A DNA stretch of 64,000 nt from Phycicoccus sp. Root101 (GTDB taxonomy: Bacteria > Actinomycetota > Actinomycetes > Actinomycetales > Dermatophilaceae), in the NCBI RefSeq assembly GCF_001426245.1, contig NZ_LMCM01000006.1:160865-224864 (forward strand), read 5' to 3'. Numbering within the stretch: position 1 is the stretch's first letter; every line of letters begins with the position of its first letter. A program made the translations under genes and the position numbers. Of this stretch, positions 46,188-50,136 are shown one piece after another. The notes under the pieces are model-generated. The model made no database searches and was not told the DNA's origin. It saw nothing but the letters and a program-made list of their open reading frames with translations.

Positions 46188-46982
<795 letters not shown>

Positions 46983-47060
46983 CCCCGGTGGCGAGCAGGG
47001 ACCGCCGGTCCCGACCGTCACCGCACCACCCCTGACCCCACCAGATCGGAGTACCCGCCC

Positions 47061-47819
47061 ATGCTGCTCGAGGGTAAGAAGCTGCTCATCACCGGTGTCC
47101 TCATGGACTCCTCGATCGCCTTCCACGTGGCGAAGATCGCCCAGGAGCAGGGTGCGGAGGTCGTGCTGACGTCGTTCGGCCGCACCTTCAAGATCACCCA
47201 GACGATCGCCAAGCGCCTGCCGACCACGCCCCCCGTGGTCGAGCTCGACGTCACCGACCAAGAGCACCTCGACACCCTCGCCGAGCGGCTGGGCGAGCAT
47301 GTCGACCACCTCGACGGGGTCCTGCACTCGATCGGGTTCGCGCCGCAGGGGGCGTTCAACTTCCTGGAGGGCACCTTCGAGGACGTGTCGACGGCCATCC
47401 ACGCCTCGGCCTACTCGTTGAAGTCGCTCGGCGTGGCCACGCTGCCGCTCATGAAGGACGGCGGCAGCATCGTCGGCCTCACCTTCGACGCGAAGTTCGC
47501 CTGGCCGGTCTACGACTGGATGGGCGTCGCCAAGGCGGCCTTCGAGTCGACCAACCGCTACCTGGCCCGCGACCTCGGCCCCAAGGGCGTCCGCTGCAAC
47601 CTCGTGGCCGCCGGTCCGATCCGGACCACCGCCGCCAAGTCCATCCCGGGGTTCGCGACGTTCGAGGAGACGTGGAACACCCGCGCCCCGCTCGGGTGGG
47701 ACGTCAACGACGCCGTGCCGGCGGCCCAGGCCTGCGCCGCGCTCCTGTCGGACTGGTTCCCGGCGACGACGGGCGAGATCGTCCACGTCGACGGCGGCGT
47801 CCACGCGATGGGTCAGTGA
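47061..47819 (+). CDS. inhA: Enoyl-ACP reductase (InhA/FabI type)
   Basis: 252 residues, SDR fold of the enoyl reductases: LLEGKKLLITGVLMDSSIAFHVAKIAQEQGAEVVLTS, LHSIGFAP, and the Tyr-x6-Lys pair in VYDWMGVAKAAFES with CNLVAAGPIRTTAAKSIPGF. Target family of isoniazid and triclosan. Last reductive step of fatty-acid elongation. The fabG-inhA order is the mycobacterial one. Confidence 0.95.
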   Translation: MLLEGKKLLITGVLMDSSIAFHVAKIAQEQGAEVVLTSFGRTFKITQTIAKRLPTTPPVVELDVTDQEHLDTLAERLGEHVDHLDGVLHSIGFAPQGAFNFLEGTFEDVSTAIHASAYSLKSLGVATLPLMKDGGSIVGLTFDAKFAWPVYDWMGVAKAAFESTNRYLARDLGPKGVRCNLVAAGPIRTTAAKSIPGFATFEETWNTRAPLGWDVNDAVPAAQACAALLSDWFPATTGEIVHVDGGVHAMGQ

Positions 47820-47862: not shown

Positions 47863-50049
47863 ATGACGTCCGCACCTGCCGTCGCAGCGACCGAGGTCCG
47901 GGTCCTCGAGGGCCCGAACCTCTACTTCGCCAAGCCGGCCATCAAGGTCAGCCTCGAGCTGCCCGGGTACCTGTCCGCCGACGAGGCCGACCTCAAGAAG
48001 CTGGCCCGCTCGGTCGGGCTGAAGAGCTCGCGACCCGGCGCTCCGGGCACCGAGCAGCGCCAGCGGTTCGTCATGCGGCTCGTCGAGCGCGCCACCCGTC
48101 GCCTCGCCGCCGCCAGCGGCACCACCCGGCTTGGGGTGCGGACCCGTCCCGGCAGCGACCCCGCCCAGGTCGTGGTGGCCTTCGTATGGCGCCGCCGTGG
48201 TCGGGCGCGCGCGCTCGGTGAGGGCGTGGCCCCCCTCCTGCAGTCCTGGCTCGACGGGGACGACCAGGTCGAGGCGCTCGGCGCCCAGGTGGCCGCGGCC
48301 GAGCCGGGGGAGCGCCCGTCGCTCATCACCCCCACCATCCCGGTCGCGTCGATCACCGGCACCAACGGCAAGACGACGACCACCCGCCTGCTCGGCCACA
48401 TCGGCATGACGGCAGGCCTGCGCACCGCCTGGTCGTCGACCGACGGCATCGTCGTGCAGGGCGAGGTCATCGAGGGCGGCGACTACTCGGGGCCGGCCGG
48501 CGCACGCGCGGTCCTGACGGCGCCCGGCGTCCAGCTGGGCATCCTCGAGACCGCCCGCGGAGGCATGCTGCTCAAGGGCATGGGCGTCTCGGCCAACGAC
48601 GTCTCGGTCGTCACGAACGTGTCCGCCGACCACCTCGGGCTCCAGGGCATCGACACGGTCGACCAGCTCGCCGAGGTCAAGGCGATCGTCACCAAGGCCA
48701 CCAAGCCCCGGGGCTGGGCCGTGCTCAACGGTGAGGACCCGCGGGTGTGGGCGATGCGCTCGGGCACCAAGGCGCGCCCCTGGGTGTTCACGCTCCGCTC
48801 GGACGCCCCGGCCGTCCGGGAGGCGCTCGACGCGGGCGGCCGGGCCATCACCGTCCTCGACGGCGACATCGCCGTGCTGGAGAACGGGCAGGACCCCGAC
48901 CGCCTCGTGAGCATCCTCGACGTTCCGGCGACCCTGTCGGGGCTGTCGGTCCACAACATCGCGAACGCCCTCGCCGGTGCCGCCGCTGCCCTCGGTCTGG
49001 GCCTGCCTCGTGCGGCCGTCGTCGAGGGCCTGAAGAGCTTCGCCCCCGACGACCAGCTCAACCCGGGGCGGATGAACACCTACACGCTGCGCCGCGAGGA
49101 CGGCAGCGCCATCACCGTCATCGTCGACCTCGCCCACAACGAGGCAGGTCTCGACGCGTTGATGGACGTCGCCCACGGCCTGAAGGTCCCCGGCGGCCAG
49201 GTCCACCTGGGCCTCGGCCTCGCAGGGGACCGCACGGACGACCTGCTGGAGTCCATCGGTGAGGTCGCGGGCCTGCGGGCCGACCGGATCGTCGCGGCGC
49301 ACAAGGAGCACTACCTGCGCGGGCGGACCATGGAGGAGCTCGAAGGCCACCTGCGCACCGGGTTGGCGCGAGCCGGCGTCGCCGACATCGACTCCTACCC
49401 GACCGAGCTCGGTGGTCTGCAGGCCCTCGTTCCCGGCGCCTCGGACGGCGACGTCGTCGCGCTCATGTGCCACGCAGAGCGGTCCCAGGTGGCCTCGTGG
49501 CTGGCCGAGCAGGGGGCCGTGGCCGACGGGCCTGACGACATCCGCCGCAAGGTCGTGGCCGCCCGCGGGGAGCACGAGTTCGAGACGCAGATCGCCGAGC
49601 TGTGGGAGCTGGACGACGACCAGGCCCGGATCGAGGCGGCCACCTCGTTGCGCACCTCACGCCCCGGCGACGCCCGCCTGGTCTACGAGCTCGCCGCGAC
49701 CCTGGACGCCGCCGGGCGCGAGAAGGACGCGATCGACCTGTACCGCGACGCCCTCGCCAGCGGGCTGCGCGAGCCGCACCGGCACCGTGCCCGGATCCAG
49801 CTCGCCTCCAGCCTGCGCGTCACCGGCCAGCCGGACCTCGCGCACTCGCTGCTCACCGAGCTCTCGCACGAACGGCCCGGCAGCGTGGCCGTCGAGGCGT
49901 TCCGCGCCCTCGCGGCCTACGACAGCGGTCGCGGTGCCGAGGCGGTGGCCGACCTCATCGACACCCTGCTGCACCACGCCGGTGACGAGGACAGCCTGAG
50001 CTACCAGCGGGCCCTGCACGGGTATGCCGCGCAGCTGCGGGATGCCTGA
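47863..50049 (+). CDS. CphA-like Mur ligase without ATP-grasp, fused to TPR
   Basis: 728 residues. The N-terminus (VLEGPNLYFAKPAIKVSLEL...) resembles the N-terminal domain of cyanophycin synthetase, but the ATP-grasp domain is missing and the Mur-ligase P-loop GTNGKTTTT comes at 166-174. Further Mur motifs are LETARGGMLLKGMG, NVSADHLGLQGIDT, HNIANALAGAAAALGLGL and DLAHNEAGLDALMDV. From about residue 575 the sequence is helical and TPR-like (PGDARLVYELAATLDAAGREKDAIDLYRDAL). Ligates an amino acid-like unit to a peptide or polymer, presumably; substrate unknown. It converges on a full CphA-like synthetase across a shared terminator. Leaderless ATG. Confidence 0.85.
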   Translation: MTSAPAVAATEVRVLEGPNLYFAKPAIKVSLELPGYLSADEADLKKLARSVGLKSSRPGAPGTEQRQRFVMRLVERATRRLAAASGTTRLGVRTRPGSDPAQVVVAFVWRRRGRARALGEGVAPLLQSWLDGDDQVEALGAQVAAAEPGERPSLITPTIPVASITGTNGKTTTTRLLGHIGMTAGLRTAWSSTDGIVVQGEVIEGGDYSGPAGARAVLTAPGVQLGILETARGGMLLKGMGVSANDVSVVTNVSADHLGLQGIDTVDQLAEVKAIVTKATKPRGWAVLNGEDPRVWAMRSGTKARPWVFTLRSDAPAVREALDAGGRAITVLDGDIAVLENGQDPDRLVSILDVPATLSGLSVHNIANALAGAAAALGLGLPRAAVVEGLKSFAPDDQLNPGRMNTYTLRREDGSAITVIVDLAHNEAGLDALMDVAHGLKVPGGQVHLGLGLAGDRTDDLLESIGEVAGLRADRIVAAHKEHYLRGRTMEELEGHLRTGLARAGVADIDSYPTELGGLQALVPGASDGDVVALMCHAERSQVASWLAEQGAVADGPDDIRRKVVAARGEHEFETQIAELWELDDDQARIEAATSLRTSRPGDARLVYELAATLDAAGREKDAIDLYRDALASGLREPHRHRARIQLASSLRVTGQPDLAHSLLTELSHERPGSVAVEAFRALAAYDSGRGAEAVADLIDTLLHHAGDEDSLSYQRALHGYAAQLRDA

Positions 50050-50092
50050 CCGCACCACACGCCGCCACGACGACCGGCGCCCCACGACGGAT

Positions 50093-50122
50093 GGCCCGAT
50101 CCCGCAGCAGTGGGGTCGGGCC
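50093..50122. terminator. Bidirectional terminator between the two CphA-like genes
   Basis: GGCCCGATCCC and GGGGTCGGGCC form an 11-bp stem with one G-T pair around an 8-base loop; flanking CGACG/CGTCG can extend it. Between convergent genes. Confidence 0.75.
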
Positions 50123-50136
50123 GTTCGTCGTGCTGC

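Follow-up and report, generated by a model that had tools for sequence, protein, structure and literature searches.

A short paralogue of cyanophycin synthetase CphA that lacks the ATP-grasp domain, found together with CphA and possibly an accessory ligase for its product

Beside the cyanophycin synthetase gene cphA in the window (the whole 64,000-nucleotide stretch of Phycicoccus sp. Root101 DNA analysed) lies a gene for a shorter protein, which joins a CphA-type N-terminal (N) domain to a Mur-ligase (M) domain and lacks the ATP-grasp (G) domain (Table 1). This short protein is tentatively read as an accessory ligase that uses ATP to join an amino acid to carboxylates of the CphA product and that probably lacks the arginine specificity of CphA; its Mur-ligase part would be an ancient paralogue of the CphA M domain, carried on an N domain of CphA type. 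The reading as a whole is given a probability of about 0.4. Lacking the G domain, the short protein would neither add aspartate nor lengthen the backbone. Its N domain would hold a polymer or oligomer made by CphA, and the amino acid attached to the carboxylates would not be the arginine that CphA normally uses, leaving an edited or capped cyanophycin. This is the simplest reading because the M domain is intact, the N domain is of a polymer-binding type, and CphA is present wherever its presence could be checked. We infer the activity, the action on the CphA product, and the use and nature of a non-arginine amino acid.

The available literature describes cyanophycin as the product of one enzyme. 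A second ligase that is conserved, apparently active and linked to CphA suggests that the polymer may be modified in the organisms concerned, which include relatives of polyphosphate-accumulating wastewater bacteria and extend beyond them. Where ‘two cphA copies’ are counted, two different enzymes can be lumped together, and the short protein could give a new tool for altered cyanophycin.

Table 1. Features of the short protein and its surroundings, in window coordinates
Feature	Coordinates	Strand	Description
Short CphA paralogue, 728 aa	47863..50049	+	N domain, Mur-ligase domain and TPR tail
N domain, residues 1-157	47863..48333	+	CphA N-domain fold, Cx19HxxEH zinc site lost
Mur-ligase (M) domain, residues 158-552	48334..49518	+	P-loop GTNGKTTTT at 166-174
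M-domain residues			E229, H257, K273, R403, D422, H425; lid motif YLRGR 484-488
TPR_5 tail, residues 607-725	49681..50037	+	Preceded by a linker
Complete cyanophycin synthetase CphA, 951 aa	50137..52992	-	N-G-M; TIGR02068 1154 bits, cut-off 850
Cyanophycinase CphB, 286 aa	53042..53902	-	TIGR02069 240 bits, cut-off 126.6
Predicted hairpin	50083..50132	.	23-pair stem, 4-nt loop, between convergent stop codons; z -5.2, folded stretch against shuffles

The open reading frame and its P-loop were found where the original prediction had placed them, and its statement that the ATP-grasp domain is missing was borne out. At E ≤ 1, Pfam assigns Mur_ligase_M (residues 164-376) and Mur_ligase_C (403-535), which together give membership of the Mur ligase superfamily, and TPR_5 (607-725, E 1.3e-23), with no match to an ATP-grasp family or to PF18921. 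The short protein reaches 341 bits against TIGR02068, below the cut-off and through the M domain only. In BLASTP it matches the neighbouring CphA over residues 159-549 (498-902 of CphA, 36%), with a second, weak match at the N-terminus (residues 3-33, E 0.012). When the full-length protein is modelled (pLDDT 83.8, pTM 0.61), its best Foldseek matches are CphA1 chains. The adjoining complete CphA and cyanophycinase, which had also been predicted, both score above the curated NCBIfam cut-offs; cphA lies tail to tail with the short gene, followed by cphB on the cphA strand. A degraded or frameshifted CphA was ruled out by the intact reading frame, purifying selection and a conserved family: in comparison with four relatives (78-85% identical), dN/dS is 0.09-0.17 for the M domain, 0.19-0.38 for the N domain and 0.32-0.36 for the linker and TPR tail, and the corresponding values for CphA with two relatives are 0.09-0.10.

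The catalytic set of the M domain is invariant. In an alignment of 72 short proteins (excluding L020, L021, L075 and L088, which are truncated or unsure in frame, and including L085 and L106, whose starts look wrong) with 59 CphA sequences, K170, E229, H257, K273, R403, D422 and H425 are identical in every sequence of both sets; among the short proteins, position 171 is T in 53 and S in 19, and position 193 is T in 47 and S in 25. K170, E229, R403 and H425 align with K499, E558, R731 and H748 (numbers verified on the Synechocystis chain), which according to the available text of PMC9427784 contact ATP or Mg in TeCphA1. Because of this invariance and alignment, the M domain of the short protein is probably active. 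By contrast, the lid differs between the two groups: GDRRDxD and RED..RGR in CphA, GDR[T/P/S]D and [YF]LRGR in the short proteins. The latter motif is present in 71 of the 72 (Y in 65 and F in 7; one has T for the last R) and YLRGR in none of the 59 CphA; the strict motifs GPN and YLRGR occur together in 57 of the 72, with variants in the remainder. In the numbering of the window's CphA, R807 (56/59 CphA), D810 (58/59) and D891 (59/59) are found in no short protein, 16 of which have E in place of D891, and D830 (58/59) in only seven. E829 (58/59) is still E in 40. These lid positions lie near the amino-acid pocket by alignment with E. coli MurE, whose amino-acid contacts we take as a guide to the arginine-binding residues of CphA. 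Because residues of the CphA lid are consistently lost, an amino acid other than arginine is proposed. The net charge of the M core is also reversed, at -2.6 against +7.6 in CphA.

The same alignment bears on the possibility that the short protein is an auxiliary arginine ligase, which would carry out the side-chain reaction of the CphA M domain and thereby speed a rate-limiting step or fill side chains that CphA had missed. The shared fold and catalytic set would suit such a role, as would two arginines common to both groups, that of GDR and the first of RGR, which align near MurE residues that bind the incoming amino acid, and the E kept at position 829 in those 40 proteins. However, the absence of R807, D810 and D891 throughout and of D830 in all but seven short proteins argues against it, and CphA's own M domain is intact in 59 of 59 sequences, so that an arginine helper is considered unlikely.

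The N domain has the fold, but not the sequence signature, of its CphA counterpart. Pfam finds no family in residues 1-157 alone, even at E ≤ 10. A model of these residues from a 17-sequence alignment (mean pLDDT 92.2, pTM 0.88) retrieves CphA1 or CphA2 chains at places 1-15 in Foldseek (E 1.8e-5 to 2.9e-2; TMq 0.63 for the best), with another protein sixteenth (E 0.14). The CphA-like N-terminus is thus upheld by the structural check that had been named for it beforehand. Aligned profile to profile, the short and CphA N domains run collinear over 130 columns, but by probability the match is weak (34%, E 4e-4). The mean net charge of the N domain is +6.0 in the short proteins (sd 7.5, n = 72, of which 10 are not positively charged) compared with -4.5 in CphA (sd 2.7, n = 58), with windows cut by different rules in the two sets and one CphA (L081_F) dropped.

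The TPR tail that had been predicted is real (TPR_5) but not a feature of the family at large: among the open reading frames of 84 loci, BLASTP at E ≤ 1e-3 finds matches to it only in Dermatophilaceae, and the tail was on this ground rejected as the key to function. Two Listeria records also contain free-standing TPR proteins that match residues 584-725 (about 36%), and the tail may therefore have been gained by fusion. A regulatory or scaffold subunit, binding CphA or the granule through the N domain or the Dermatophilaceae TPR tail and tuning CphA, with catalysis secondary, would be in keeping with a protein that occurs only with CphA, whose charge pattern is opposite to that of CphA and which bears a TPR tail in one family. 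A scaffold has no need of a strictly conserved catalytic set, however, and this role appears improbable.

The CphA N domain is characterized by a motif, Cx19HxxEH, that the available text of PMC9262961 describes as a zinc site which cuts cyanophycin into primers and reports in 83% of CphA1 at 70% non-redundancy; at that frequency it is not strictly defining for CphA1. In the present set it is found in 58 of 59 CphA, the window's included, and in 0 of 72 short proteins; the profile alignment pairs RLVER of the short protein with HVAEH of CphA. The original interpretation stands in part. That the short protein adds a residue to something a partner provides, a polymer or a protein, agrees with its intact ligase site and its lack of a G domain and is the part favoured here, but priming of the CphA product is weakened by the loss of the motif. 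A starter enzyme would ligate arginine or another residue to free aspartate, providing the first beta-Asp-X unit for CphA. An M domain without a G domain could conceivably form such a dipeptide, and the available text of PMC9262961 proposes that the true activity of CphA1 without primer is very low. Against this, a dedicated starter seems unneeded when nearly every CphA carries the primer-generating motif, and the N domain of the short protein lacks it throughout; the role is judged quite improbable.

Relatives of the short protein are found in Actinomycetota, in Chloroflexota and on some alphaproteobacterial plasmids; the survey covered the first two phyla through genomes and Alphaproteobacteria through plasmid records only. 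Among 396 evenly drawn Actinomycetota genomes, 24 have the short gene, in some cases fragmented, and all 24 also have CphA, whole or in part; none has CphA alone, and one (G389) has a distant Mur protein only. For G149, G234 and G297, the presence of the two genes was completed by a second search. Of 27 genomes of the class of G061, largely overlapping this sample, 17 match. Per-genome match counts divide 186 Dermatophilaceae into 103 with matches at E ≤ 1e-20, 102 of them with two or more, and 83 without. The remaining one of the 103, G812 (58% complete), has a piece of the short gene only, with no CphA match. In another Dermatophilaceae genome (G839, C255:962-5442), CphA is 49% identical to that of the window and was possibly acquired from elsewhere; a second Mur protein follows on the same strand.

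In a 400-genome sample taken as Chloroflexota, 56 genomes match, sorted by hand from the hit pattern. The short gene is present in 39, each of which also has at least a piece of CphA. Eight have CphA and no short gene (G459, G620, G644, G658, G665, G728, G757 and, partial, G625), so that CphA does not need the short protein. G526 and G699 have CphA, with a doubtful second copy; in G626 the CphA-like pieces contain stops; and six have distant Mur proteins only. In this and the Actinomycetota sample two candidates were scored per genome, and second copies may be missed. The sample, drawn as the phylum of L022, was assigned to Chloroflexota because of 16S comparisons (71-75% identity to E. coli in the 14 genomes with usable 16S) and because G508 has five rRNA operons, as in the Herpetosiphon aurantiacus chromosome according to the available text of PMC3368417. 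L022 itself, titled Steroidobacteraceae, was accordingly rejected as an occurrence in Pseudomonadota, and probably its title is wrong or the bin mixed. Plasmid records with close relatives are from Shinella, two Ruegeria and an unverified ‘Roseateles’. The three alphaproteobacterial plasmid relatives that were opened (578-601 aa) have the order cphB-cphA-short on one strand, and plasmid annotation names these relatives ‘Mur ligase family protein’. The expectation that the short protein always occurs with CphA thus held, in that CphA could be ruled out in none of the genomes found with the short gene, G812 being 58% complete.

Among 75 loci with the short gene, it is convergent with cphA in 59 and runs in the same direction in two; the sequence read at the other 14 contains no CphA. 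In seven Chloroflexota loci (L084, L085, L087, L089, L090, L093 and L094) the two stop codons overlap (CTAG, TTAG or CTAA). Least probable of the roles weighed is an amino-acid ligase serving a different metabolite and adjoining the cyanophycin genes by chance: the short gene does lie away from cphA in six Herpetosiphon-like Chloroflexota (L112-L117) and in Nostocoides jenkinsii (at 3.65 and 0.65 Mb), but both genes are kept even in these genomes, CphA could be ruled out in no genome found with the short gene, and the N domain is of CphA type.

The accessory-ligase reading can be extended to the neighbouring genes. In 29 of 84 loci, from both Actinomycetota and Chloroflexota (e.g. L090:3661-4842, minus strand), a gene for an M20 peptidase adjoins the short gene or lies close to it on the other strand; the Dermatophilaceae loci among these 84 have none. 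Compared with solved structures, one such neighbour is closest to carboxypeptidase G2 (E 1e-42), with poly(aspartic acid) hydrolase at E 6e-11. The view that CphZ is an M20 enzyme was rejected, since that dipeptide hydrolase family is M14-like in the available text of PMC10206079. In this extended form, the short protein would be a second ligase module adding a non-arginine, perhaps acidic, residue that the M20 enzyme removes in many lineages, mirroring CphA and CphB; it is a speculative version that we hold to be unlikely. The N domain of the short protein is mostly positive, and its lid is without the acidic residues of CphA. If it were true, the natural ‘cyanophycin’ of these bacteria would be a mixed or capped polymer. 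The peptidase is not a required partner, because the one tested has no match at E ≤ 1e-20 in ten Dermatophilaceae genomes, the window's included; in N. jenkinsii the M20 match is only 31%. Near the cluster in one Chloroflexota group (L095, L099 and relatives), a gamma-glutamyltranspeptidase and an AzlC-family protein are each encoded in eight loci.

In an 80-row tree of M domains, made by a quick method and without two pieces of a split Deinococcus gene, 34 CphA rows and three G-less or degenerate proteins are grouped together (SH-aLRT 99). This group contains no short protein, and most short proteins lie outside it; three alphaproteobacterial rows and the short rows L112, L115 and L120 are nearest to it (support 85). 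The branching orders of short proteins and CphA are similar by eye. Because the outgroup, MurD-like by eye, is very long (6.19), neither the root nor a single grouping of all short proteins is secure. The three G-less or degenerate proteins, from Legionella adelaidensis (L145) and Deinococcus (L144, L147), were rejected as members of the short family on account of their position inside the CphA group; the missing or degenerate ATP-grasp domains of these plasmid proteins look like independent losses.

Among known systems, the short protein shares with CphA1 the N and M folds, the seven catalytic positions and the adjoining genes, but lacks the G domain and the N-domain zinc motif and has an altered M lid and reversed net charges. 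CphA2, the cyanobacterial beta-Asp-Arg polymerase, is likewise a shortened CphA with an N domain and is among the Foldseek matches. However, CphA2 keeps the G domain and has lost the P-loop and lid of the M domain, as given in the available text of PMC9427784, and the short protein, which keeps M and lacks G, falls outside that definition. MurE and other Mur ligases have the same M-domain fold and ATP site, but the short protein has a CphA-type N domain and no DNPR motif. The closest earlier record concerns Tetrasphaera TET1 and TET2, for which the available text of PMC10687191 (2023) reports two cphA copies ‘in series’. The shorter copy is apparently the same gene: the locus titled TET1 (L014), which from its name we infer to be the TET1 MAG of that study, has the short gene tail to tail with cphA. 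There it is counted as a second cphA, its domains undescribed in the available text. Its expression below that of the longer copy in these MAGs weighs against the accessory-ligase reading. A literature search of titles and abstract beginnings, with subscription papers mostly outside its coverage, found no prior description of an N-M paralogue of CphA.

The stop codons of the short gene and cphA are 87 nt apart, and the predicted hairpin between them is a possible bidirectional terminator. It was not reported by an inverted-repeat search of the intergenic stretch, and a scan for promoter and terminator consensus found no terminator there. The hairpin is not uniform, since the longest uninterrupted stem ranges from 6 to 23 pairs in 17 related junctions. 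Upstream of the short gene, on the same strand and ending 43 nt before it, fabG and a FabI-type enoyl-ACP reductase gene occupy 46203-47819 of the window; a FabI homologue is encoded in 20 Dermatophilaceae loci, the window's included.
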